IMG/VR virus record: IMGVR_UViG_3300030101_000432
Coordinates: 1 to 20,924 of that record
Direction: 5' to 3' (one strand)
DNA from: a virus
DNA length: 20,924 nt
The notes under the pieces are model-generated. The model saw nothing but the letters and a program-made list of their open reading frames with translations, was not told the origin of the DNA and searched no databases. Both the position numbers and the translations under genes were made by a program. Below, piece after piece: positions 1,387 to 16,943 of the stretch. Positions within the stretch are counted from its first letter, which is position 1; each line of letters starts with the position of its first letter.

Positions 1387-2078
1387 GTTACGATTGTCTT
1401 CCATACTGACGTTATAATAAAATGTCTTTCTGCATCTGTAATATTAGAGTTATCTGGATTCAATCCTATATGTATTAAAGAACCGGCAGGCACTGTTGGA
1501 TCTGCGTTCCAGTCAGATCTATTGATAGTGATAACCGAATCATCTACAAAACTATCGGTAAAATCAAATGTGCAAACAGTACTTGGTGCAAGGTCATTCT
1601 CTACTGTTTCTTCAACAGTAAACACAATGTCAGTAGTCGAAGTAGCCATCTCTGGTATCTTCATCATAAGTTTGTGACAGGTCATGTCAAAGGGAGCCAA
1701 GAAAGAAGATCGTGCTTCTGGAACTGATGTTTGTTCCGCTGTGCCCTGCCAAGGTATGTATATCTTTGAACTGGGTAAGTCATCTGTAAAATTATGAGAA
1801 AATATTCTATAGTCTATAAATGATGTTGTGTACTCCAACCTTGAGTTTACTTGCAGATTATCAACAGTAAGCTTGCCCTTTTCGTGTTTGTTTTGACTGC
1901 CGTGCATATCAGAAGTCCAAATCTTACCACGTTCTTTTCTGTATCTTGTAAGGGTACCACGATTTCTAAAGTACAGCACCTCTTCACCTTCCCTCATAGA
2001 CTGAACAGAGGGCTGTTCTCTTACAACTCTAATCTTGTCCTGTTTTCTGTTGGCAATAAATCGAGTAGCCCTGTCCAT
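1380..2078 (-). CDS. Virion structural protein (tail-associated)
   Basis: A 232-aa protein. The start is taken as ATG at 2078, which shares one base with the stop of the 908-aa gene (TGATG) and has AAGG six bases upstream; a TTG one codon earlier is less likely. The sequence is rich in predicted beta strands, with a basic N-terminus (residues 1-60) and a region around residues 88-115 containing FIDYRIFSHNFTDDLP and YIPWQGTAEQT. I recall similar proteins in marine phages next to tail genes, but know no established function. Coupled translation with the tail/stabilisation protein suggests a tail or fiber-attachment component made in similar amounts. Confidence 0.75.
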   Translation of the reverse strand: MDRATRFIANRKQDKIRVVREQPSVQSMREGEEVLYFRNRGTLTRYRKERGKIWTSDMHGSQNKHEKGKLTVDNLQVNSRLEYTTSFIDYRIFSHNFTDDLPSSKIYIPWQGTAEQTSVPEARSSFLAPFDMTCHKLMMKIPEMATSTTDIVFTVEETVENDLAPSTVCTFDFTDSFVDDSVITINRSDWNADPTVPAGSLIHIGLNPDNSNITDAERHFIITSVWKTIVTI

Positions 2079-4804
2079 CAAGAACCTTTCTTATAGAGGG
2101 TTCTATACTCTATTGCAATATCATTAATATATGTCTTAACAGCAGTACTGCTACTATTAAACCTTAACGAAATTTTATTGCAAGTTACTGGCGATGATGG
2201 AGTAAGCTTTACCTTTGCCCAGTTAGATGCCGATGCACTAATAGTACCACTTAATGCTGTGCTGGTACCATCTTCCTCTAATAAGCTAAACATACCAGTA
2301 AGTGCTACATCTGATTTATATGTAATGTGCACAGCGTATACCTTCTTTACCTGATGTATGTCCCCAAAGCTTAACGCCTTTGTTGTAAACTGTGTTTGTG
2401 TATTAGCCACAACTGTTCTATGTATTTGATATATGTCAATTTGACTACCACTATCGTGAGCAATCAATGTATTGTTACTTTCAGTGTCTACTGAATTTGT
2501 AAGCCCATCATTGCTATCTAAAACAAAATCTCTAGCAAGTGTAAAATTACCTTTCTTTAAATCACACATATATACATCACCATCATTGTCAAGGCTCTTT
2601 ACTACAAAAACCATAGACTCTTGTTCATCGTATATAATACCTGTAGTTCCTCCAACATGACTATTCCAATCACTATCACTAATTTTATTTTCTCTTAGGT
2701 TGGTTATAGAGGATCCATTATACAGATATAAACCCTGTCTATTGGCCCATATTACGCCATACTGGGTTTTTTTTACTGCTTCTGGATGCAATATACCCTG
2801 ATACTGTTTACTGTCCTCTAGGAACCAGTTACGGTCATCTCCAGCTATATTAATAATGTCTAAACTTTTATTCTTGTAGGCTAACAATCTATCTGCATAC
2901 GCCTCTATTGCAACGTACACATCTGCATCACCCTTAGCCGCCTCTATAAAATTAGTAGAAGGAAATGTATCGTACCTGTTAGGCATAGAGTACATGATTC
3001 TATCTGGGTAAGACCTTAGTGTTGCATCTGCTTTGGTGTCACCAGTGTCTTCATCTTTCATGGTTACATTACACACAAAAACTCTATTGTTTGCAACTAC
3101 TGCATCTTTCCAATGTTCTCCAGAGTCACCCAATGCATTGCTAAATATACTGGAACTAAATCCATTGATTACTTCATAGGTAATAAAACCAAGTTCTGTT
3201 ACCCTAAAATTATCTGCAACTGTAGCATTGGGACATTTGTATTGAGAACTGCCAGCATCGTGCCATGCAGTATAATCATCTGATAACTTTGTCCTAGCTC
3301 CTTTTGTAAGGTCTATATCTACAAGCATAATAAACTCAGAGTCATCACCTACTTTCCTAATATACACCCTACCTCCAGATACCCTAGGGTCAAATGGCCC
3401 TTTAGCACCAATACTTACAGACAATGCCTTAAATTCATTTGCTTCTGAGACTGTATGAGTAGTTGTATATTTTTTAGGCAAAGACTCTTGATTGCCATCG
3501 TAAATAAAGGTAGAGGCAAGTTCGTAAGTTCCTGCTTCTATCAATCCATCTTCATCTGTTTCTGTTGATATTGCAACCGTAAACCCATTTCCAGCACTTC
3601 CGGGGTTGGAGGCAGTAGCACCAGTAGTACTTGTTGCTGAACTAAGAACAACCTCTGTTGGTTTTGCAAGATCATTGTCCTTTGCAAAATAATTCATATA
3701 GGAATTATCGTCAGTGGAAGAATTAACTCCGTCAAAATGCCTTCTTTGTATCCAGCCATACCATTGAATTTTACAATCATTTTTATCGGCAGTATCGCAA
3801 CATCTTATAGACTCTTCTACTTTGTAATACTTAACCTTAGAAGGATTACCTGATACTGTTGATGATCGTAAAGTAATTGAGCTTAACTCCCATGTACCAG
3901 AATTTATAGAAAAGGTATCTATTGTGTGATCTACTGGACTAGACAAAAGCAATACTTGATCGCCCATAGAGGCACCTGTAAGAGTAGCACTCCAATAAAC
4001 TTGAGGTAATGGGCCGCCACCAATCGGATCGTTGCCTTCAACTAAAAGACCAATACCTTTATTAAAAACAATATTATTTCCATTGGTATCTACTACACGA
4101 TATATTCCCTGACCATTTGGATCAATTCCATTTGTGGCAAAAGAACTAGAAGTTATATTAACCAACGTGCCAACAGGAAAAGAAGATGCTAAATTTTGTT
4201 GAGTGCCACTAATTCTATATTCCAACTCTTTTAATACACCGCCATTAGTTCTTGCTATGAACCCAGTAGCGGAACCTTCATTATCGTCATCTCCTGTAAT
4301 AGAACTCGTTTGAGAAACTGTAACCAAGTCTCTTGCGAAGTCTGTCTCAAAATAACCTAATCCATATCCGGGTTGTACCGTATCCACACCAGTTGTAAAA
4401 GTTAATGTTCCATTTGTTACGCTACCCCCAGTAGTAGAAACATTACTTCCATTGGGGCCGTCACCTAACTCAAAAGAGGTGCTACTAGTTACAGACTTCA
4501 CAAATGAATTGGAGGGTATTCCTGTTCCAGCAACAGTCATCCCAAGAACAATTCTAGTATTTGCATCGTGTGCAATCGTAGGGCTATCATTGTAGTCACA
4601 AGTTTCATCTGTAAACGAGGTAGAGTAGGAGGCAATTTTATTATTGGTGCTGTCTTTCATACTGTAGAATGGCTGTATACCACCATACACATTGAACATG
4701 ACAGCCCTAGCCGCACCTACCTCATTGTCAGCAATGTCAGCAATGTCCTTAACGGTGTTTAATCCACCGCTAAAGTCATTTAATTGGTACAGTCTTTTAG
4801 GCAC
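2078..4804 (-). CDS. Tail tube / stabilisation-type structural protein
   Basis: The largest tail gene here encodes 908 aa. It opens with LNDFSGGLNTVKD, a pattern common at the N-terminus of phage tail tubular or stabilisation proteins. The middle (roughly residues 620-770) has several beta-propeller-like strands such as RLLAYKNKSLDIINI and YGVIWANRQGLYLYNG. The C-terminal hundred residues look like a beta sandwich. By length, order and composition it fits the class that closes the neck in short-tailed phages (T7 gp12-like or P22 gp10-like); this is a family-level inference, not a match I can prove. The start is GTG at 4804, sharing one base with the preceding stop (TAGTG), with AAAGG six bases upstream. 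A few cysteines cluster near residue 345 (CCDTADKNDC). Confidence 0.75.
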   Translation of the reverse strand: MPKRLYQLNDFSGGLNTVKDIADIADNEVGAARAVMFNVYGGIQPFYSMKDSTNNKIASYSTSFTDETCDYNDSPTIAHDANTRIVLGMTVAGTGIPSNSFVKSVTSSTSFELGDGPNGSNVSTTGGSVTNGTLTFTTGVDTVQPGYGLGYFETDFARDLVTVSQTSSITGDDDNEGSATGFIARTNGGVLKELEYRISGTQQNLASSFPVGTLVNITSSSFATNGIDPNGQGIYRVVDTNGNNIVFNKGIGLLVEGNDPIGGGPLPQVYWSATLTGASMGDQVLLLSSPVDHTIDTFSINSGTWELSSITLRSSTVSGNPSKVKYYKVEESIRCCDTADKNDCKIQWYGWIQRRHFDGVNSSTDDNSYMNYFAKDNDLAKPTEVVLSSATSTTGATASNPGSAGNGFTVAISTETDEDGLIEAGTYELASTFIYDGNQESLPKKYTTTHTVSEANEFKALSVSIGAKGPFDPRVSGGRVYIRKVGDDSEFIMLVDIDLTKGARTKLSDDYTAWHDAGSSQYKCPNATVADNFRVTELGFITYEVINGFSSSIFSNALGDSGEHWKDAVVANNRVFVCNVTMKDEDTGDTKADATLRSYPDRIMYSMPNRYDTFPSTNFIEAAKGDADVYVAIEAYADRLLAYKNKSLDIINIAGDDRNWFLEDSKQYQGILHPEAVKKTQYGVIWANRQGLYLYNGSSITNLRENKISDSDWNSHVGGTTGIIYDEQESMVFVVKSLDNDGDVYMCDLKKGNFTLARDFVLDSNDGLTNSVDTESNNTLIAHDSGSQIDIYQIHRTVVANTQTQFTTKALSFGDIHQVKKVYAVHITYKSDVALTGMFSLLEEDGTSTALSGTISASASNWAKVKLTPSSPVTCNKISLRFNSSSTAVKTYINDIAIEYRTLYKKGS

Positions 4805-5031
4805 TACTTACCTTTGAATAATCCCTCTATAACGTCTGTTACAACGTCTACCATCTTTTCAAAGAAGATTTGTTCTTTTTCTTCAGATACGAAAGGGATG
4901 TCAATCTTTTTGTTGATTGCAGTAGCAATACTCTCTGACATCTCATCTGATGCAAGGTGATTGATTGCTTCTTCTTTCATCTTGTCTGCCTGCTCTTCTG
5001 CAAGCTTTACTAACATTGATTTAATATCCAT
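4804..5031 (-). CDS. Small acidic helical phage protein, unknown function
   Basis: A 75-aa protein starting with MDIKSMLVKLAEEQADKMK. It is helical and charged throughout, with no signal peptide or membrane segment; the C-terminus (MVDVVTDVIEGLFKG) could form a short amphipathic helix. It is joined by one-base stop-start overlaps to both neighbours (TAATG with the XhlA-like gene upstream and TAGTG with the 908-aa tail gene downstream), so it is embedded in the cluster. I do not recognise a named family. It could be a small cytoplasmic partner of the membrane proteins upstream or a chaperone for the tail protein downstream. Confidence 0.65.
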   Translation of the reverse strand: MDIKSMLVKLAEEQADKMKEEAINHLASDEMSESIATAINKKIDIPFVSEEKEQIFFEKMVDVVTDVIEGLFKGK

Positions 5032-6504: not shown

Positions 6505-6813
6505 TTACCCTCTGTAAGCTATGCATACTGCTGTAGAGTCTGTATGGTTTACAATACCACTAAAGTTTCCATACAGTATCTCTCCGGGTATTAGGTTGAC
6601 AAAAGAACTAATGTCATCACCTATATTAGATGTTGCTTTTATTTTAAGAAACTCAGTCGTACCACTAGAGTCTTTACCTAATGCCTGTATAGCTATCCAA
6701 GAACCTGTATCTGGGTTTACAACATTTGTATCGTGCTCTGCTATAACATCGAAACCATTCTGACCTATTAAGAGATTAGCCGCCTCTTTCTGTGTGTATT
6801 TGTAAAGACTCAT
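6505..6813 (-). CDS. Small conserved phage protein, probably virion-associated
   Basis: A 102-aa protein with no signal or membrane segment. The C-terminal half alternates strands and turns (KATSNIGDDISSFVNLIPGE, then LYGNFSGI), a pattern I recall from small proteins of marine phages that sit near fiber or tail genes. No specific function is known to me. It starts with ATG at 6813, sharing one base with the stop of the lysine-rich peptide gene (TAATG). It may be a fiber tip, decoration or attachment protein; this is inference from fold type and position only. Confidence 0.65.
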   Translation of the reverse strand: MSLYKYTQKEAANLLIGQNGFDVIAEHDTNVVNPDTGSWIAIQALGKDSSGTTEFLKIKATSNIGDDISSFVNLIPGEILYGNFSGIVNHTDSTAVCIAYRG

Positions 6814-7007
6814 TACTTAGAACCAAACACCTTTGAAAAGAAACCTTTCTTTTTATTCTTCTTGCCTTTGTTTTTAAGCTTTTTACCTTTCTTCTTTTTT
6901 TTCTTCTTTATCTCTTCGCTCATCACCAACTGTTCGTATTGAACAGAATCAGAAGGAGACCCACCTACAAAAGAAAAAGCAATTAAAAAAGCCATTATCT
7001 TTTTCAT
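6813..7007 (-). CDS. Signal-anchored lysine-rich peptide
   Basis: A 64-aa protein. Residues 1-16 (MKKIMAFLIAFSFVGG) look like a signal peptide or short membrane anchor. Residues 34-54 are almost entirely lysine and glycine, including seven consecutive lysines, and the end is GFFSKVFGSK. By hand count 20 of 64 residues are lysine. An exported polycation could bind lipopolysaccharide or anionic lipid; small cationic lysis proteins (disruptins) are known in some phages, but I see no sequence relation that proves this. AAAGG lies seven bases before the ATG at 7007, which is two bases after the previous stop. A cytoplasmic nucleic-acid binding role is possible if the N-terminus is not exported. 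Confidence 0.65.
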   Translation of the reverse strand: MKKIMAFLIAFSFVGGSPSDSVQYEQLVMSEEIKKKKKKKGKKLKNKGKKNKKKGFFSKVFGSK

Positions 7008-7982: not shown

Positions 7983-10900
7983 TTAAGATGTAAAATATGT
8001 CAATGTCACAGTTACTTCATCATTCGTTGAACACATTGCACCAGTTACAGAAGACTCTATTCCATCATCTGTTATCTCTACAATATAAAAATACTGTGTA
8101 GCGTTTACAGCTTTTGCCACCAGACTAACAGCATTTGCAGTATGATTAACATTTCTTGTTTGTACAACTCCAAGAAATCTATCACCGCCTGTTGAATGGT
8201 CTAATAATGCAAAAGGTAATGTAAATCTTAATTCCCCAGATACAGTGCTACTTAAATCATTTAATGCAAGTTCACCAGAAACAGTAACTTGTCTTCCAAT
8301 TTTTGTATATGTCAATTTGTTGTAACTGCTGTTCAATGTAAATGTACCGCCACCAGCATCTGTTCCAGTAACAGTATGTTCACCTTCTTCGTAGTCATCA
8401 AGTACATTTGCTCCACCACTTGCCGCTTGACTTGATGGAAATTGAATACCAGCAGTATGAACTGTAGCACCACTATCTGATGCCATATAAACATCAGTAA
8501 TGTCTGCATTACCAATTGTTGCTTTATTAGAGCCTTTTCCTGTTACCCCATATCCTAATACTATTTCATTACCAGCATCTACAGCACTAATATCTGAATC
8601 TGCTCCAACAATAACATTTTGAACACCAGCTGTCATAGCATCCCCAGTAAAAGCACCTAAAATTGTATTTTCTCTGCCTGTGGTTACAGCCTGACCAGCA
8701 TTTATTCCTACTGCTGTATTTTTCCCATCTATGTCGCTATTAAAAGTCTCTAAGGCTTGATGTCCAAAAGCTGTATTGAAATTACCACTTACATTTGAAC
8801 CTAAAGTACCTCTTCCAAATGATACGTTTGCTACTCCATCTACATTAGCAAACTGTGATTGATACCCAAATGCGTGATTTGATGCTCCTGTAGTAAGTGC
8901 TTTTAATGCTTCGTGTCCCACAGCCACGTTTGCAGTACCACTTGTTAATCCTCCCAATGCATCTGTGCCAATAGCAATCGTTCCTGTTTGATTATTATTA
9001 GAGACTGCATCCATAGCATTAGAACCGATTGCCACGCAACCTATAATTTCACCATTTCCGCCCTGTAGTGCATTTTTACCAATGATTACATTATCGTGAG
9101 ATGCGTCATTATTGATAAAATAACCAGCTTCACTTCCAATGGCAATATTAAAATCTTCTCCACCATCAGCAGTATACATTGTTCCATATCCAAGAGTTGT
9201 ATTTCTATTTCCAGTAGTTTGATTTGCTTGAGATTGATAACCAACAGCAACTGATTTAATACCAGTTGTTAACGACTTTAAGCTATCTTTACCGACTGCT
9301 ACCGTACCATTTGTACCAGTTGTTGTATTTGTAGCATCTCCAAAGAAAGCATTTGCTCCAATCGCTACACAATCTGCAATTCCATTAGCAGTTCCATTCA
9401 TTACTCTCATTGCAGAATCACCAATCGCAACATTCTTACTTGGGCTTACTGCCGACAACATAGCTTTATGTCCTAAAACAGTATTGTCTGATCCATCTCC
9501 ATCAGCATCGCCAGTAAGTGCTTGGTAGCCCAAAACTGTGTTCCCACCGCCTGTAGTAGTTTGTTCGGCTGTACCAAATCCAACGGCGGTATTTCCAGAG
9601 CCACTTGATAAATTAGTAAGTGAATTTTTACCTATTGCAACTGTTCCTGTTTGTGTAGCACTTCCTAAAAACATAGTTTGTCTACCTATAGCCACACAAT
9701 CAATTGCATCGGTAGAATTATATAAAGAATATCTGCCTATAGCAACATTACCATTTGTTGTTGTGAGGTTATATCCAGCTCTACTACCTATTAACACTGA
9801 TTCAGCTCCAGATGTTAAGTCAAGACCCGCTTCAGAACCCATTGCAACATTCTCACCACCTGTATCAACAGACTTCAGAGCTTCAAATCCAACTGCTGTG
9901 TTACCAGCCCCCGATGTCAACACTTTTAAACTGTCATAACCTATCGCCACAGTGCCAGTAGCGGCAGTAGTAACATTTGCAGTCCCAATTGCACCTACGC
10001 CAACAGCAACCATCTTAGTTCCAGAAACAGATGTAGCACCAGCGTTCATTCCTATAAAGGTGTTTTCTGAACCATCTTGCATCTCTAGTCCAGTTTGCCT
10101 ACCATAGAAACTATTACTATCTCCAGAAGTTAAACTATGTCCTGACCTGTATCCGACAGCGGTGTTTTGAGTAGCATCGTCTAATGTATTTTCAGTAGCT
10201 ACATCTTCCCCAATAAATACATTGTAATTTGAACCAGAGTCAATAGTTCCAACATTTTTTCCAAAGATGGTATTTGATGTACCACTATCATTATTAGAAA
10301 GTGAGATTCTGGAGTTGCCATCAAGCACCATATTTGTAACTAACCCAGAGGATTCAAGATATGTTTTTAAGGTAAAATTTGTACCTTTTGTTGAGCTACC
10401 ATCTATTGAGCCGTTTGTAGTCCAGTCTATAGAACCAGCAACTCCCGGCAAGTTACCACTTGCATCAGATATAAATGCTTCAACTTTTCCAACAAGTTCA
10501 GCACCAGTTATATTTGTATTGGCAGATGTAAGTCTTAATGTAGAACCACTTGCTCCGTGCAAATCTCCAACGACACCAGTGCTGTTTTGCTCAATTTTCA
10601 ATGGTACAGCACCAGTTGCACTTGCGTGATTATTTACTATCTGAATAAGACTTCTTGAACTTGAATCAGATGAATTAGAATAAAATCTTGCAATACCATT
10701 TGAGGTGAGAGCATCACATTCAACTAATATAGCATTAGCTGTAGTGTTTTCAGAGTCTATCTCTAAAGCAAAATTATTAGAATCTTGGTCTATTTTTACT
10801 TTATTAGAAAAAGTAACATTTCCACCAGATGAAATAACTATATCTTCATTAAAAGCAGAGCCATAAGAATGACCTATAAATAAATGGTCACTGCTATCAT

Positions 10901-11573
10901 TCCAACCTATATGTCCAAATGCTCCGCCAGATAAACCAGATTCACCTATTAATATTTTTCTGTTTGCACCATCTACATTTACATTACCGCCAGACACAGT
11001 TACTGCACCAGAAAAAGTAGCATCACCACTTTTTAACTGCATTGTTTGAGTTAGTGTTCCAGATTTCATAGTTCTAAATGTCATAGAACCATCTTCTGAA
11101 CCATCAGCAACATCTTCAGTTGAAACAAAATGGTCAGCATAAGTTGTTAATTCTGGAGTGCCAGCATTATTAAACGCTTGATATTTAAACTGACCTACTT
11201 CATCACCATTATTGGCATCACCACTATTGCTTTTTTTGAAAGTTAAAAAAGCTGGACTATCATCAGTATTAGTATTTTCAAGTGTTAATATTGGATGATT
11301 TGATGCAGATGATGTTATGGTCATATCACCATTTACCACTTCACTTACGTTAGCAACACTATCACCATTGACTGTTAAGTCTCCTGATATAGTTACATCT
11401 CCAGAAATCGTACCTCCGGCTAGGGACATATTTAATCTGTTGTTTGTAGTATCTAAAACACTGTTTAGTGCTTCTTGTGAGGTTACTGAGTTTGCCGTGA
11501 CGGCGTTTCCTGAAGAGTCTAGAAGTACTTTGTTTAGAACTTCCTTAGCGGTGAATTTATTTGGGTTTGCCAT
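7983..11573 (-). CDS. Tail fiber / receptor-binding protein with YadA-like repeats
   Basis: A 1196-aa protein. The N-terminal region (about 1-110) contains SGDVTISGDLTVNGD-type strands, common in fiber shafts. Residues 434-1040 contain about 33 tandem units of roughly 18 aa with the core N-T/V-A-V/I-G (NTAVGYQAL-like), the beta-roll repeat of YadA-type adhesin heads and some phage fibers. Residues from about 1058 form a C-terminal module beginning DDYEEGEHTVTGTD and containing YTKIGRQVTVSGEL, a tip domain frequent in marine phage fibers. Such proteins form trimers and bind the host surface. ATG at 11573 has AGGA six bases upstream. No protease or chaperone domain is visible at the end. An adhesin-like virion spike is the alternative name for the same job. 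Confidence 0.85.
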   Translation of the reverse strand: MANPNKFTAKEVLNKVLLDSSGNAVTANSVTSQEALNSVLDTTNNRLNMSLAGGTISGDVTISGDLTVNGDSVANVSEVVNGDMTITSSASNHPILTLENTNTDDSPAFLTFKKSNSGDANNGDEVGQFKYQAFNNAGTPELTTYADHFVSTEDVADGSEDGSMTFRTMKSGTLTQTMQLKSGDATFSGAVTVSGGNVNVDGANRKILIGESGLSGGAFGHIGWNDSSDHLFIGHSYGSAFNEDIVISSGGNVTFSNKVKIDQDSNNFALEIDSENTTANAILVECDALTSNGIARFYSNSSDSSSRSLIQIVNNHASATGAVPLKIEQNSTGVVGDLHGASGSTLRLTSANTNITGAELVGKVEAFISDASGNLPGVAGSIDWTTNGSIDGSSTKGTNFTLKTYLESSGLVTNMVLDGNSRISLSNNDSGTSNTIFGKNVGTIDSGSNYNVFIGEDVATENTLDDATQNTAVGYRSGHSLTSGDSNSFYGRQTGLEMQDGSENTFIGMNAGATSVSGTKMVAVGVGAIGTANVTTAATGTVAIGYDSLKVLTSGAGNTAVGFEALKSVDTGGENVAMGSEAGLDLTSGAESVLIGSRAGYNLTTTNGNVAIGRYSLYNSTDAIDCVAIGRQTMFLGSATQTGTVAIGKNSLTNLSSGSGNTAVGFGTAEQTTTGGGNTVLGYQALTGDADGDGSDNTVLGHKAMLSAVSPSKNVAIGDSAMRVMNGTANGIADCVAIGANAFFGDATNTTTGTNGTVAVGKDSLKSLTTGIKSVAVGYQSQANQTTGNRNTTLGYGTMYTADGGEDFNIAIGSEAGYFINNDASHDNVIIGKNALQGGNGEIIGCVAIGSNAMDAVSNNNQTGTIAIGTDALGGLTSGTANVAVGHEALKALTTGASNHAFGYQSQFANVDGVANVSFGRGTLGSNVSGNFNTAFGHQALETFNSDIDGKNTAVGINAGQAVTTGRENTILGAFTGDAMTAGVQNVIVGADSDISAVDAGNEIVLGYGVTGKGSNKATIGNADITDVYMASDSGATVHTAGIQFPSSQAASGGANVLDDYEEGEHTVTGTDAGGGTFTLNSSYNKLTYTKIGRQVTVSGELALNDLSSTVSGELRFTLPFALLDHSTGGDRFLGVVQTRNVNHTANAVSLVAKAVNATQYFYIVEITDDGIESSVTGAMCSTNDEVTVTLTYFTS
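8510..10274 (-). repeat. Coding tandem repeat of the fiber, about 33 units
   Basis: Degenerate coding repeats of about 54 bases encode one beta-roll unit each. From 10013 to about 8720 they are arranged in four blocks of six units (block starts at 10013, 9698, 9371 and 9038). The block starts are marked by MVAVG or CVAIG, each followed by a TGT[VI]A[IV]G unit. Repeats are conserved at protein level and diverged at DNA level. Confidence 0.8.
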
Positions 11574-11675: not shown

Positions 11676-12104
11676 TTAAGTAAAACTTGCTGGTACTACT
11701 GCTCTGGTTCCTCCAGTCTTACTTCTCTTTTTGGTGCCGTATTTCTTTACGGCCATGTCAAATTTTCTTTCGTGTTGCATCATCAGGTTCATAGACACTT
11801 GAGCCATACTAGCATCTGATTCTGTACCAGCCCTATCCATATACAAACACTTCTTTACATAATCAACAATGGCTGAATGAAAAAGATTGTCTATGTCTGG
11901 GGTCTGTGTAATCGCAGTAACCTTATTTGGATTACCGTAATAATGAAGAAGCATACCGTTAGTAACTGAGTGGTCAAATGCCTGATATGCCTTTCTGTCA
12001 GTCCTAGACTCGCCAGAAGAAGAGAATGTTGTTATGAGACCTAAATGATCTCCTCTTATAAAATACAGTACCTTATCTTCCGGATGTTTTATTTCACTTG
12101 CCAT
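11676..12104 (-). CDS. Head completion / head-tail adaptor protein
   Basis: A 142-aa protein. It is mixed alpha/beta in the first 75 residues (KVLYFIRGDHLGLITTF), then has a long helix region (HSAIVDYVKKCLYMDRAG, followed by QVSMNLMMQHERKFDMAVKKY) and a basic end. The size, and its place directly after another short connector gene, fit the small adaptor proteins below the portal. The exact family is not recognised. ATG at 12104 shares one base with the previous stop (TAATG) and has GAGGAG eight bases upstream. It is the last gene before the spacer and the fiber. Confidence 0.65.
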   Translation of the reverse strand: MASEIKHPEDKVLYFIRGDHLGLITTFSSSGESRTDRKAYQAFDHSVTNGMLLHYYGNPNKVTAITQTPDIDNLFHSAIVDYVKKCLYMDRAGTESDASMAQVSMNLMMQHERKFDMAVKKYGTKKRSKTGGTRAVVPASFT

Positions 12105-12454
12105 TATGAAGGCTCCTCTATTGCAGATTCAGATGTCATGTCAAACATTAATGGTTCACCGTCAACAACTCTAGGTATTCTTATGTAATCACCATCGTTA
12201 TCCATTATATCTACTCTATAAACTTTATTAATACCCATTGCATTGCTACTAGAATCTGTTGCACTGTCTGACAAATCATAAAATGTTTTATTAGCTTCTA
12301 TGTTTATTTTAGCAGACATGGACTTCTGCGAGTATTGACCTAACTCATTCAATGCATCATTTATTAAGGACATGATATATGTTTCAGGTGCGTTAGGAAA
12401 AACCTGTCTAACCCTGCTGATAATCTGTTTTACTGTTAGTGATTGTATCGCCAT
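12104..12454 (-). CDS. Short head-tail connector protein
   Basis: A 116-aa protein with the N-terminal pattern LTVKQIISRVRQVFPNAPET, then YIMSLINDALNELGQ, two helices typical of phage head-tail connector or gp4/gp6-type adaptors. The C-terminal half is beta (KTFYDLSDSA, INKVYRVDIMDNDGDYIRIP). Its role would be to bind the portal underside and shape the neck; this is inferred from fold pattern and gene order. It is joined by TAATG to genes on both sides, so production is probably coupled to the 413-aa protein. Confidence 0.7.
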   Translation of the reverse strand: MAIQSLTVKQIISRVRQVFPNAPETYIMSLINDALNELGQYSQKSMSAKINIEANKTFYDLSDSATDSSSNAMGINKVYRVDIMDNDGDYIRIPRVVDGEPLMFDMTSESAIEEPS

Positions 12455-13695
12455 TATCTCAACGCCTGTATTCCTTTGTCGTAATCTGCCTGTAATTTAG
12501 CCTGTTGTTGAGCATAGATGTTGTAATTACGTTGATTATTTTCAAGGTTTTGAGAATAGGTTTGCACTTCAGTGTTGACCTGTGCACTATATTTATTTAA
12601 TTCTGCTAAAAACTTAGATACAAGATCGTCATTATTTTGTACAGCCGCTTGTAAAGTCTGTGCTTTGTTTTGCAAATCTAATGCTTGATCTTGTGATTTG
12701 TTAAATTTATCTACATCTGTTGCTTGAGATGCCTCTTGCTGTGCATCTGCGGCATCAAGTTGGGCCTGTCTTAATGCTACCTGTAAATCAGTATTGTGTT
12801 TTGCAAGCACTCCCTGCACACTGGCCTGATACCTTGCATTTTCTTTATTAAACTCATTTAACTCATTCTGTATATCCGTTCTATGAGCATCAAGTAATTG
12901 ATTTTGTTTTTGTAATTCAACAGAGGCCAATTCAGTATCTTCATTTGTGCCTAACAACGTATCAAAATCATTACCACTTCCAAAATTAACGGTAGTGCCG
13001 GGCTTTGTATACGTTGGAGCATTTCCACTTGTATCTGCAACTGAAACTGTAGAGACCGTAACAGAGTTCACAGCACTAGAACTAGCACCTGTGTTACTGG
13101 CATTTGAATAAGACAGTGTAGCCAGACTAGGAGCACTTGGTGCTGATGCAGATATGCTTAAATCTGATTTTATCAAAGTGCTTAATTTATTACTAAGAGA
13201 TTTAATAGCACCATAAAGAGCAACTAAATATTCTCCATCATCTGGAAACTTTGCAATAACACTATTTTCAAATGTTACCGTAGGGTAGTTCAATGTATGT
13301 ACATGAGCGTTTTGAGCGTTAGTAGGCTCTGGTACAACACTTAATATATTGTTGGTTATATAGTATGCTGGGTCTGTAGCAGTAGCCGCCATCATGTCAT
13401 CAGCATCTCTAATCCTTCCATTTAGTTCTGGTCTTACTATTCTACAAGGTTGATTAATTGTGCCATCATCTCTAGTAACACTAAATATTTCTGAGCCAAG
13501 AACTGTGAAGTTTGGACTACTACCGTTCAAATCATTTGAGGTTGTAAACAGGGATTGCTTAGATCTAGGCAAAGAATTTAGCACTTCCTTTGCACCATCT
13601 GTTAAGAACTGACTTAGTTCTGTTTTGGTCGGTGCACTACTATCATCTATAGTTAAACTTGTTAATGCTTGTACTTGTGCATGAAATGTTGCCAT
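12454..13695 (-). CDS. Connector-like virion protein with long coiled-coil tail
   Basis: A 413-aa protein in three parts. Residues 1-175 form a globular domain with helices (TKTELSQFLTDGAKEVLNSL) and strands (QPCRIVRPELNGRIRDADD), similar to connector or virion proteins near the head-tail joint. Residues about 180-230 are a Ser/Ala/Thr-rich linker. Residues 250-413 are a glutamine-rich coiled coil (LQVALRQAQLDAADAQQEAS). The combination resembles an adaptor fused to a filament, so it may line the neck or anchor the fiber. ATG at 13695 directly follows the stop of the upstream basic-protein gene. I do not know a named family. Confidence 0.65.
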   Translation of the reverse strand: MATFHAQVQALTSLTIDDSSAPTKTELSQFLTDGAKEVLNSLPRSKQSLFTTSNDLNGSSPNFTVLGSEIFSVTRDDGTINQPCRIVRPELNGRIRDADDMMAATATDPAYYITNNILSVVPEPTNAQNAHVHTLNYPTVTFENSVIAKFPDDGEYLVALYGAIKSLSNKLSTLIKSDLSISASAPSAPSLATLSYSNASNTGASSSAVNSVTVSTVSVADTSGNAPTYTKPGTTVNFGSGNDFDTLLGTNEDTELASVELQKQNQLLDAHRTDIQNELNEFNKENARYQASVQGVLAKHNTDLQVALRQAQLDAADAQQEASQATDVDKFNKSQDQALDLQNKAQTLQAAVQNNDDLVSKFLAELNKYSAQVNTEVQTYSQNLENNQRNYNIYAQQQAKLQADYDKGIQALR

Positions 13696-14016
13696 CTATT
13701 TCTTCTTTCTTCTTCTTACAGTTTTTTTCTTTGCTGTTTTCTTTTTACCACCACGAATTAAATCTGCATCTGCTTTTCTAGCACCACCTTTACCAGTAGC
13801 AAAACTTCTTACCCTACCAGCGGCCCACTGATGTGCACTGACTCCGGGCCTAGACCCACTAGAGTAGTATGCACCCAAGCCTCTAGAGTAAACCTTAGAT
13901 AGCGTACCTTTAGATATTCCAGAACTTTTGGAATACTTAGCAAGTACAGCGGCTTTACTACCGCCTGCTTTTCTTTTTGGCTTTGCTTTTCTTTTTACTG
14001 CTTTTTTTCTTGCCAC
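13696..14016 (-). CDS. Basic protein with DUF5824-like core
   Basis: A 106-aa protein. Lysine/arginine-rich ends (residues 1-16 and 91-106) flank a central domain with ISKGTLSKVYSRGLGAYY, then GVSAHQWAAGRVRSF and GGARKADADL. I recall this core from marine phages and large algal viruses as DUF5824, of unknown function; the number is from memory. By hand count there are 35 K+R against two acidic residues. Binding to packaged DNA is a natural inference. The GTG at 14016 is chosen because AAAGGAG lies five bases upstream. The gene overlaps the preceding 78-aa gene by 59 bases in another frame. Confidence 0.75.
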   Translation of the reverse strand: MARKKAVKRKAKPKRKAGGSKAAVLAKYSKSSGISKGTLSKVYSRGLGAYYSSGSRPGVSAHQWAAGRVRSFATGKGGARKADADLIRGGKKKTAKKKTVRRRKKK

Positions 14017-14194
14017 TTTTACTCCTTTGCTTAGAGATCATATCCATCATTGCAGGTGTTAATGCACCCTCTCTGTACATCTTTCTAGTTCTTAATATCT
14101 CGTCTTGTGTCTTCTTTCTATTCTTAGAACCTCTTACATACTTCTTAGGAACGCCTCTTTTAGTCTTGGGTACTTTTTTAAATTTTCTAGGCAC
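13958..14194 (-). CDS. Small lysine/arginine-rich phage protein
   Basis: A 78-aa protein. The N-terminal two thirds carry a conserved-looking stretch (VPKKYVRGSKNRKKTQDEI, then ALTPAMMDMISKQRSK), and the last 20 residues are nearly pure K, S and R. By hand count there are 33 K+R and four acidic residues. Small basic proteins like this appear next to capsid genes in several marine phages as I recall, without a known role. The start is GTG at 14194, sharing one base with the preceding stop (TAGTG). The 3' end overlaps the next gene by 59 bases, and both frames remain lysine-rich there. Confidence 0.7.
   Translation of the reverse strand: MPRKFKKVPKTKRGVPKKYVRGSKNRKKTQDEILRTRKMYREGALTPAMMDMISKQRSKSGKKKSSKKKSKAKKKSRR
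14022..14028 (-). promoter_or_regulatory. Ribosome binding site for a GTG start inside an upstream gene
   Basis: AAAGGAG lies five bases before GTG at 14016. It sits within the coding region of the 78-aa gene and fixes the start of the 106-aa gene, making their 59-base overlap credible. Confidence 0.65.
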
Positions 14195-14316
14195 TACTTC
14201 TTAATCTTTTTGATCTTTCCGTTTTTTGTTCTGGCAAATTTATGAGTTTTAGTTTCTCTTATCAATGTTCCGTAGTGTTTTTTACCACCCCACATCCAAC
14301 TAACGGTTCTTGCCAC
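14194..14316 (-). CDS. 40-aa basic protein (very short gene)
   Basis: The frame encodes 40 aa beginning MARTVSWMWGGKKHYGTL and ending GKIKKIKK, with 13 K+R and one acidic residue. Although very short, it is supported on both sides: its GTG start at 14316 shares one base with the upstream stop, and its TAG stop shares one base with the GTG start of the next gene, both as TAGTG. Without it there would be an unexplained 120-base gap in an otherwise packed block. The aromatic WMWGG core plus basic tail suggests a small DNA- or capsid-binding peptide. No family is known to me. Confidence 0.6.
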   Translation of the reverse strand: MARTVSWMWGGKKHYGTLIRETKTHKFARTKNGKIKKIKK

Positions 14317-14564
14317 TACCTTCCAACTTTCTTTTGAGCCATTTTATGAGACTCAGTAAAGCTTTTTCCTTTCTTCATAGCGTTTGCCATCATTCTAAGG
14401 TGCTTTGCAGTGTGATGCTTTGAATGTTTTTTCATAGCATTAGCCTGTCTCATATTCAACCCAGCCATAGAAACACCCTTTACACTCTTAGGTGCTTTTG
14501 ATTTCATTTTTGACTTCTTTGGCCTTCCACGTTTAGACCCATAAGTTCCTTTACCCATTGGCAT
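14316..14564 (-). CDS. Basic protein with AT-hook-like motif
   Basis: An 82-aa protein. Residues 11-17 (KRGRPKK) contain the RGRP core of an AT-hook, the minor-groove binding motif. The rest is helical and rich in K, H and M (HSKHHTAKHLRMMANAMKKG, then SHKMAQKKVGR). By hand count there are 24 K+R and one acidic residue. DNA binding is likely, and a virion or DNA-compaction role fits its place in the capsid block. ATG at 14564 has AAGGAG six bases upstream, 12 bases after the previous stop. One AT-hook core alone is weak evidence in such a basic protein. Confidence 0.7.
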   Translation of the reverse strand: MPMGKGTYGSKRGRPKKSKMKSKAPKSVKGVSMAGLNMRQANAMKKHSKHHTAKHLRMMANAMKKGKSFTESHKMAQKKVGR

Positions 14565-14576
14565 ATTAGACTCCTT

Positions 14577-14870
14577 TTACCATTTAACTTTGTGACTCCA
14601 ATACCTTGCTGATAATTTGCTAGGTCTAGGGTCTTGTGCATTATGTCTAGCGTAATAACTTTTACGTCTAGCTTTATCTTTTTTACTCTTTGGATTTTTA
14701 CCAGCACCCCTAACTCCTTGCTGTCCAAACCTAATTAACTTTGTTTTACTACCAACTTTAGCAACCACCACATGTGACTTTTTTGGATGATTTGGAGTAC
14801 GCTTTGGCTTGTTATAGCCACTCACACCAGCCCTTGCGAGCTTTGGATCCTTTTTCTTTTTAGCTGGCAT
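14577..14870 (-). CDS. Small basic conserved phage protein
   Basis: A 97-aa protein with a strongly patterned sequence: AGVSGYNKPKRTPNHPKKSH, then IRFGQQGVRGAG, KARRKSYYARH and the ending SARYWSHKVKW. I have seen close relatives in many marine phage genomes and recall a DUF6321 label, function unknown; the label is from memory. By hand count there are 30 K+R and three acidic residues. The fixed aromatic and glycine positions suggest a folded protein rather than a loose tail. ATG at 14870 overlaps the end of the zinc-ribbon gene by 11 bases, with a weak TTAGG just before it. Confidence 0.75.
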   Translation of the reverse strand: MPAKKKKDPKLARAGVSGYNKPKRTPNHPKKSHVVVAKVGSKTKLIRFGQQGVRGAGKNPKSKKDKARRKSYYARHNAQDPRPSKLSARYWSHKVKW

Positions 14871-15066
14871 AACCTAAATTTTTTCTCATGCTTTTTACAT
14901 TGTCATCCATAGTTTGAGAAGAAAACTCAATATCTGTTCTTTTTCCTAAGTCAGAAGTCATCCACATATTAGTAGTAAACTTACTTTCAGATGCTTGTTT
15001 ACCGCAAGACTTGCAGTAGAACCATCCTCCCTTGTTATCTTTATTACAATGTATACATTTTTTCAT
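14860..15066 (-). CDS. Small zinc-ribbon protein
   Basis: A 68-aa protein. Residues 4-21 hold C4, C7, C18 and C21 in a CxxC-x10-CxxC arrangement (KKCIHCNKDNKGGWFYCKSC), a classic zinc ribbon that can bind nucleic acid or protein. The C-terminal two thirds are polar (MWMTSDLGKRTDIEFS) and unassigned. I choose ATG at 15066 because AAAAGGA lies six bases upstream; an in-frame TTG two codons earlier would sit against that site. It is the first gene after the hairpin and begins the block of small basic proteins. A regulatory or assembly role is possible, and no precise family is recognised. Confidence 0.7.
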   Translation of the reverse strand: MKKCIHCNKDNKGGWFYCKSCGKQASESKFTTNMWMTSDLGKRTDIEFSSQTMDDNVKSMRKNLGYAS

Positions 15067-15072
15067 AATCAA

Positions 15073-15578: not shown

Positions 15579-16943
15579 TTAGACTCCTTCTAGGTTGAAC
15601 AGTGCGTGTGACTCAGGAAGAGTAATCTCTAAACCAGCTTCGGTCAAGATCATATCTTTCCTTAAATCCTCATCAGCCGCCTGTATATTAGTCATAACCT
15701 GAGTGTCACGATTGATACCGTTACCAATTAATGGACGATAAGCAAGCTGTGTCATATCAGCCATGAGCATAAACCCAGATGCGATTCCTCTAAACAATGG
15801 CTCTTTGACAAGGTTCAACTTTCCGTGAATGGTATCAATCACCATTACAGAATGTCCGAAAGCACCTTCTCTTGAATCAAAGTTTAGTCTGAAAGGCATG
15901 TTGTTTGAAGATCCGATAGACGCATCAAGAAACGCACCATCACCTAACTTGTTAAAGAATGTAATGACTGGTAAACTACATAGTACTAGCTTCTCTGCCA
16001 TTCCACCTCTAGCTGGATCAAAAATAACTTCAAGATCACTGAGCAATCTATCGTATGTTAATTCAGCTTGTGCAACACTACGATGATATGCATTTCCAGA
16101 AGAATAGGAAAGTGCAGAATCATCTGTTACTGGTGACACATTCTTTACAATGTGACCGACTAGACCTTCAGAGTACTGGATACCACCTACACGAGCTTTT
16201 TGACCAAAGAGCATAGCTCTTTCAATGTCAATCTTGTGCTCACGCAGTTTGGTAGCCCAGATACGATTCCACTCTTCAGCATACCCACGATAGCGAGTTG
16301 CATAAGCAGTGTTGGTCATTTCTGCCGCTGTTTTAAAAATCTGGGTGTACCCAAAGTCATCTTCTATTTCAGAAGAAAATACATCGGGGGAACCAGAACC
16401 TTCTTCATAGGAAGTACCTATGATTTGAGCTACGTCATTATCAGCCAAGCTATTACTTCCGCTGACAGCAGACACATCAATTACTTTACCAGTAAATGAT
16501 GAATCAGAACTTGCATGACTTACTCCTGACTCTACCCTAACTAATGCCTGACCGTATCCGTCTGTATCGTCTTTCGTCCCGATAGCCAAAACCATACCTT
16601 TTACTAGGTACTCGACAGCGGCTCCCCCAGCAGTATCAACAGTAAATGAATACGAAGAACCTGCGGAAACCGTGCCAACAGCACCTTTAAGAAGCAAGGA
16701 ACGATCTGTAAAGCTAATTCGGTTACGATTTTCTAAATAACGGAACACTGGATCATCGGTAGGTGCTTTAGCGACCTGATTTAGATAGACGAAAAATGGA
16801 GATTCCTCTGGAACCAACTCGGCAACTCTGTCGCCGAAATTAAATATTCGTCTTCTATCCGGTCTTTGACCTACACCAGCATCAGAGGTAGTAGCAGTAA
16901 TATCACTGGACTTTAATACTCCAGAATTGAATGATATTGCCAT
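15579..16943 (-). CDS. Major capsid protein
   Basis: A 454-aa protein, the right size for an HK97-fold coat subunit. Evidence is position (portal, scaffold, then this gene, followed by a decoration-like gene) and sequence: an N-terminal arm, the stretch RRRIFNFGDRVAELVPEESP near residues 30-50, a helix containing TRYRGYAEEWNRIWATKLRE in the middle, and a C-terminal part with FRLNFDSREGAFGHSVMVID and LAYRPLIGNGINRDTQ. The precise coat family is uncertain; an N4-gp56-like group is possible. ATG at 16943 has AAAGG seven bases upstream. There is no protease gene between portal and capsid, consistent with a separate scaffold. Confidence 0.85.
   Translation of the reverse strand: MAISFNSGVLKSSDITATTSDAGVGQRPDRRRIFNFGDRVAELVPEESPFFVYLNQVAKAPTDDPVFRYLENRNRISFTDRSLLLKGAVGTVSAGSSYSFTVDTAGGAAVEYLVKGMVLAIGTKDDTDGYGQALVRVESGVSHASSDSSFTGKVIDVSAVSGSNSLADNDVAQIIGTSYEEGSGSPDVFSSEIEDDFGYTQIFKTAAEMTNTAYATRYRGYAEEWNRIWATKLREHKIDIERAMLFGQKARVGGIQYSEGLVGHIVKNVSPVTDDSALSYSSGNAYHRSVAQAELTYDRLLSDLEVIFDPARGGMAEKLVLCSLPVITFFNKLGDGAFLDASIGSSNNMPFRLNFDSREGAFGHSVMVIDTIHGKLNLVKEPLFRGIASGFMLMADMTQLAYRPLIGNGINRDTQVMTNIQAADEDLRKDMILTEAGLEITLPESHALFNLEGV

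Follow-up and report, generated by a model that had tools for sequence, protein, structure and literature searches.

A relocatable cassette of small polycationic proteins in a lineage of probably marine phages and its candidate role in the phage head

Neutralization of the DNA in phage heads is usually ascribed to small cations and polyamines. The closest described counterparts of the genes presented here are the internal proteins (IPs) of phage T4, three small basic proteins present at ~300 copies each that bind DNA at low salt and are ejected with it (PMC9026906). They are poorly conserved, and relatives of T4 have other basic proteins in their place (PMC9026906). Large eukaryotic DNA viruses also have DNA-condensing basic proteins in abundance in their virions, examples being PBCV-1 (PMC3281028) and ascovirus (P64, PMC6163548), but these are taken as functional analogues only, and P64 and A278L are far larger than the proteins of the window (i.e., the whole stretch of DNA analyzed, a viral record of 20,924 bases). 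Like T4 IPI, IPII, and IPIII, the window proteins are several, small, and strongly basic, and T4-like relatives of two of them (g97 and g106) have N-termini resembling the capsid-targeting peptide. On the other hand, the five window proteins carry no T4-type targeting peptide themselves (scores −4 to 1) and have no demonstrated sequence kinship to the IPs, and genes of this type are grouped in one cassette that occupies alternative sites as a block.

The window derives from an uncultured phage of probably marine origin, and its major genes lie on the minus strand. Their order is portal, capsid, a 142-aa gene, zinc ribbon, five basic genes, a 413-aa coiled protein, an adaptor-like pair, a long fibre, and late genes, with the P22-type portal (P22_portal, 8.9e-40) and the SU10-type major capsid protein (15579-16943; SU10_MCP, 7.7e-25) upstream of the basic island. 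Within the lineage the basic genes occupy either of two sites. Site 1 lies between zn70 and the neck-like c413, and site 2, ~9 kb downstream and also late, between t75 and t908; the latter is empty in the window, where t75 abuts t908 (2078-4804). The features concerned are as follows.

g97: 14577..14870, minus strand, 97 aa (K21 R9, D3 E0), polycation of the phrog_7595 family
g82: 14316..14564, minus strand, 82 aa, basic
g40: 14194..14316, minus strand, 40 aa, basic, GTG start
g78: 13958..14194, minus strand, 78 aa, basic, GTG start, recurrently directly upstream of g106
g106: 13696..14016, minus strand, 106 aa, GTG start, C-terminal half of DUF5824 with Lys/Arg-rich tails
zn70: 14860..15072, minus strand, zinc ribbon (DZR 0.0016, below the cut-off), upstream edge of site 1 and overlapping with the g97 start
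c413: 12454..13695, minus strand, coiled neck/tail-like protein (weak tape-measure match, 0.00069), downstream edge of site 1
t75: 4804..5031, minus strand, upstream edge of site 2

The zinc-ribbon gene was found in nearly all lineage contigs that reach its position, and the length of c413 differs among relatives. Further downstream, two adjacent genes (11676-12104 and 12104-12454) match opposite halves of Pfam SU10_adaptor (0.00028 and 0.0045, below the cut-off), like one split adaptor gene; in some sister contigs a protein of 275-278 aa replaces the 142-aa member of this pair. Several stretches of the 1196-aa fibre (7983-11573) match tail-spike and virion structural families.

The island (13696-14870) consists of five minus-strand ORFs of 97, 82, 40, 78, and 106 aa that together hold 403 aa, 135 K+R, and 11 D+E, exactly as counted by hand in the preliminary description, with a net charge of +124 and pI values of 11.3-11.9. 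Net charge per residue ranges from +0.28 to +0.37 in these five genes versus −0.09 to +0.07 in the other window genes. The sole other basic gene, outside the cassette at 6813-7007 (64 aa, +0.25 per residue), begins with a hydrophobic, signal-like stretch and ends in a tail rich in lysine, and relatives of it were found in G033 and G029. Five basic genes in a row are not due to chance, since only 4-9% of distant small ORFs in unrelated contigs exceed +0.2. The genes abut or overlap (by 1 bp at 82/40 and 40/78, and by 59 bp at 78/106), which suggests a single transcription unit; a scan for promoters and terminators gave signals no higher than in shuffles. Median dN/dS was 0.043 for g97, 0.149 for g82, 0.074 for g40, 0.099 for g78, and 0.090 for g106, within the range of the capsid (0.090) and neck genes, so the five genes are constrained and protein-coding. 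An AT-rich genome with AAA/AAG-rich codons can yield lysine-rich ORFs of low complexity and no function, but dN/dS values of 0.04-0.15, conserved patterned domains, and occurrence in hundreds of contigs leave this explanation a practically negligible probability, chance lysine-rich ORFs being ruled out by the selection test and by conservation.

At the level of protein families, g97 matches phrog_7595 over its full length (profile match 1.1e-33, positions 2-96 of 96). Its AlphaFold2 model predicts a beta hairpin and two helices (pLDDT 79), with fold matches in BFVD to ICP1 ORF125, an XkdF, a ChaB protein and, at E 0.011, Tunisvirus. Against DUF5754 and DUF6321 it scored 16.5 and 16.2 bits, under the curated cut-offs of 27.4 and 28.5, and a distant kinship is possible. 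DUF5824 (PF19141) was matched by g106 (2.2e-13, 50.9 bits versus a cut-off of 25) in its C-terminal half only (model positions 63-123 of 127). The protein also matched phrog_28338 (5.1e-15), and its AlphaFold2 model (pLDDT 74) predicts a core of helices and basic tails of low confidence. The position of g78 immediately ahead of g106 makes it an attractive candidate for the missing half, and g78 is possibly the N-terminal half of DUF5824. It had no Pfam match, and hhalign gave a weak profile similarity to that half (positions 1-55; E 0.066, probability 0.8%). Within these weak statistics, the best 10 of 38 g78 relatives outscored all 1140 shuffles and the other basic families. In a separate profile comparison, the scores of two g78 and two g106 relatives that had been in the searching models were circular and were left out. 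No accepted family was found for g78 or g40; the C-terminal half of the latter is nearly invariant, THKFARTKNGKIKKIKK, and the protein gave a weak match to Hva1_TUDOR (E 0.17, below the cut-off). A supposed g40-g97 fusion in CRP-902, labelled 'HVA1 family', was discarded, its translation being a plain g97 relative without a Pfam match.

The remaining protein, g82, has a C-terminal core of ~45 aa (phrog_31838) with five invariant histidines and an optional AT-hook-like N-terminal extension. The AT-hook-like core seen in the preliminary description is a look-alike only, as Pfam AT_hook scored 10.7 bits (E 0.55) against a cut-off of 17.4 and most relatives lack that extension; g82 was thus rejected as an AT-hook protein. 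The invariant histidines (47, 50, 51, 55, and 73) could form a metal site in a nominal polycation. Kinship to histones, HU, protamines, or ribosomal proteins was likewise rejected, since neither a sequence search of the PDB with four family profiles nor a fold search with g97 gave a relative of solved structure; for g106, the fold comparison was limited to viral models.

The lineage was surveyed through 80 relatives of the capsid protein. Complete stretches from zn70 to c413 are of two kinds, those with several basic genes and those with no more than a single short ORF. Among contigs with both sites readable, the cassette was at site 1 only in 11 (the window, G003, G004, G005, G007, G011, G019, G020, G021, G030, and G033), at site 2 only in nine (G001, G014, G015, G022, G023, G025, G026, G029, and G034, with G022, G023, and G034 being near-copies of each other), split across both in one (G036), and missing from none; G005 was counted under site 1 only, and the boundary of its two sequence pieces falls at site 2. 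Every contig with an empty site 1 and a readable site 2 had the cassette at site 2. The capsid tree requires at least five changes of site-1 occupancy, all forced by well-supported (starred) branches. Thus the location between capsid and connector genes given in the preliminary description holds for the window and is not obligatory, as sister phages carry the cassette as a block at the second late site. In some contigs whose main cassette is located, or may be located, at site 2, site 1 still holds a 32-aa basic ORF (L132:8093-8191; L118, L110, and L115-L117), perhaps a remnant and perhaps a gene of its own.

The contents of the cassette also change within the lineage. A DUF6321 protein (7.2e-23) may stand in the place of g97, a 56-aa protein in that of g82, and a 127-131-aa phrog_14910 protein may replace g40-g78-g106; members of DUF6321 and DUF5872 sit in the same cassette in sister phages. 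Whatever these contents, the net charge of the cassette is ~+69 to +158 (overlapping frames discounted), i.e., ~+72 to +158 for full site 1, ~+75 to +102 for site 2, and +69 as the sum of the split case, with lower values in a few partly read or reduced site-1 cassettes. The cassette is a relocatable unit in which the contents are swapped and the strong positive charge is kept.

The same families recur in unrelated phages. Relatives of g97 were detected in 66 phage records (E<=0.01), among them HMO-2011, SIO1 and other cobaviruses, CRP phages, cyanosiphophages, and Aeromonas and Vibrio phages. With relatives of g97, g106, g82, and g78 in unrelated viral contigs as anchors, 35-69% of the small ORFs no more than three genes from an anchor were strongly basic (>+0.2 charge per residue) versus 4-9% of a background of small ORFs 5-12 genes away (p 1e-18 to 1e-58; 1e-14 to 1e-34 without the five families). 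In several contigs, four or five families occur together but in a rearranged order (e.g., L311, L309, L314, L317, and L319). In the cultured cyanophage P-HS2, genes of the g78, g106, g82, and g97 types are consecutive, as are those of the g82, g78, and g106 types in HTVC111P, and g78 is directly ahead of g106 in most multi-family contigs. What stands of the conserved order of five families is hence their co-clustering in unrelated phages; content and order are shuffled.

TerL or portal genes lie within 1 kb of 21/78, 22/71, 24/78, and 6/40 loci of four families, about a quarter to a third for three of them, and one contig (L191) reads TerL-portal-69-g97-g78-g106. The neighbouring genes are those for lysis, tail, or fibre instead of head genes at site 2 of the lineage, and likewise in cobaviruses and HTVC111P. 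A scan of 84,980 prokaryote genomes returned 51 loci, nearly all of them on contigs assembled from metagenomes or obtained from single cells, a distribution that a viral gene would be expected to show. The pool comprises DUF5824 (PF19141), DUF6321 (PF19846), DUF5872 (PF19197), DUF5754 (PF19058, sub-threshold match only), phrog_7595, phrog_28338, phrog_31838, phrog_16028, and phrog_14910, all of unassigned function in Pfam and PHROGs. DUF5754 and DUF5872 are also reported from the giant algal virus CpV-BQ1 (PMC12085832).

Several lines of evidence link the families to the phage head. The g97 domain lies inside the head maturation proteases ICP1 gp125 (phrog_9979) and Aeromonas 2L372D_102 (1e-14 and 6e-17; Peptidase_S78_2), the former encoded between portal and scaffold genes, and the same stretch of both proteins matches phrog_220, 'minor head protein and DNA pilot' (4e-8 and 2e-9). 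In these proteins the domain is part of a protease without net charge, whereas g97 of the window is a free polycation. Among T4-like phages that infect marine bacteria, the domains of g106 and g97 occur as tails or neighbours of a cytidylyltransferase-like protein (Melnitz gp18, HTVC008M gp130/gp131, C48C1, and Rhodobacteraceae bin L477); Melnitz gp18 carries both domains and HTVC008M gp130 that of g106. The cyanophage citidylyltransferase T4-GC190 was detected in S-SM1 virions (PMC3037559), and S-CREM2 ORF154, of the same enzyme family, was also found in virions, with possible carry-over mentioned by the authors (PMC10665884). We placed Melnitz gp18 and T4-GC190 in one family on the basis of ~35-46% identity across the enzyme domain of cyanophage proteins annotated in this way. 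The cyanophage enzyme detected in virions aligns with no more of Melnitz gp18 than about residues 14-274 and lacks the g97 and g106 domains, and thus its packaging does not depend on such tails. The direct virion data bear on this cyanophage relative of a fusion partner and not on the cassette proteins themselves.

When the N-termini of domain-bearing T4-like proteins were compared with the T4 capsid-targeting peptide, they ranked 5/186, 3/197, 6/197, 8/200, and 24/215 among the ORFs of four genomes, partly related. This ranking was made against T4 IPIII and IPI alone because a first pattern had been written after the N-termini were viewed (post hoc), and it is suggestive. Targeting-like starts (MKKFSELTSE, MQGFKTFLSE, MLSFKQFVSE, and MLDFKNFITE) are also present in genes beside the cytidylyltransferase-like gene of Melnitz (L410:165-2879) and C48C1 (61824-65126; L415 and L513), and these genes may be a cluster that encodes internal head proteins. 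The literature searched yielded no virion proteome of a cassette carrier, and the cobavirus paper shows none; the ICP1 capsid paper covers procapsid-like particles only, analyzed against coat, scaffold, decoration, and TcaP.

Since they share the logic of T4 IPs (small, basic, late, exchangeable, and with head-linked domains), we favor a head-internal role for the five proteins, which by analogy would be a DNA-associated, cassette version of that system; the chances of this being right appear to us about evenly balanced. The genes would be expressed late, judging by their position, and the small polycations would enter the procapsid or go in alongside the DNA, associate non-specifically with the packaged genome, and remain on it. 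Once bound, they could partly neutralize or order the genome, and they would possibly reach the next host together with it. Of the histone-like set proposed in the preliminary description, a conserved, head-linked module is upheld by co-clustering, fusions, and purifying selection, but not a membership in the histone, HU, or AT-hook families.

Any effect on compaction or neutralization depends on copy number. By arithmetic on assumed copy numbers for a 42-kb genome, 60 copies of each protein would offset ~9% of the phosphates and 415 copies ~61%. A broader proposition is that, throughout a large group of tailed phages from the sea, DNA is packed with obligatory, exchangeable, chromatin-like polycations, protein neutralizing a sizeable share of the DNA charge beside small cations and polyamines. 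We regard it as conceivable though doubtful, and the published view is against it, stating that there is no evidence that basic proteins neutralize phage dsDNA to a large extent (PMC3281028).

Other roles were weighed against the head-internal, DNA-associated one, the chief alternatives being delivery into the next host and action solely inside the infected cell. The proteins might be head-internal but serve delivery instead of packing, being ejected to act in the cell, through anti-restriction or a takeover of nucleoid or transcription, in which case the rapid swapping of contents would reflect an arms race, as proposed for T4 IPs. The contents are indeed swappable at one locus, the fusions are linked to the head, and T4 IPs are ejected, with IPI inhibiting restriction (PMC9026906). 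Yet all members are polycations despite their lack of sequence kinship, a pattern suggestive of selection on charge itself, and their low dN/dS is atypical for an arms race, leaving delivery into the cell unlikely in our judgment. That the proteins are never packaged and serve as late RNA- or DNA-binding factors (in translation, on the host nucleoid, or in concatemer handling) would agree with their late position, with head genes that do not always adjoin, with a 70-aa zinc-ribbon neighbour, and with the readiness of polycations to take RNA as well as DNA. We consider it quite unlikely, however, given the fusions to head maturation proteases and to a nucleotidyltransferase family found in virions, and no kinship to ribosomal proteins was found in the PDB by sequence.

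Finally, the proteins could coat or reinforce the capsid on its inside as scaffold or cement, any contact with DNA being incidental. The conserved cores are predicted to be folded, the island of the window is placed between capsid and neck genes, and the ICP1-type fusion protease has to work inside the procapsid. However, contents differ between phages with capsid proteins >80% identical, which means that no specific contact with the capsid is conserved, and a part in the shell is very improbable.

In the open-access literature searched we came upon no account of the cassette, of its two sites, or of a turnover that preserves its charge, an absence that carries little weight. The cassette would be a variant of the internal basic head proteins, made up of sequence families already catalogued without function. 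It is kept by every readable member of the lineage, as a block at either site, and refilled with unrelated basic proteins, which argues that late positive charge itself is selected. This provides hypotheses on function for phrog_7595, DUF5824, DUF6321, and DUF5872 in marine phages. Another family that shares the cassette, phrog_16028, is a widespread basic family of 50-58 aa, GLYANIHAKRKRIKAGSGEKMRKPGSKGAP (L163:8244-8411, L261:5174-5338, and L087:4043-4201), and its copy in CRP-810 is labelled, probably wrongly, as a ribonucleotide reductase.
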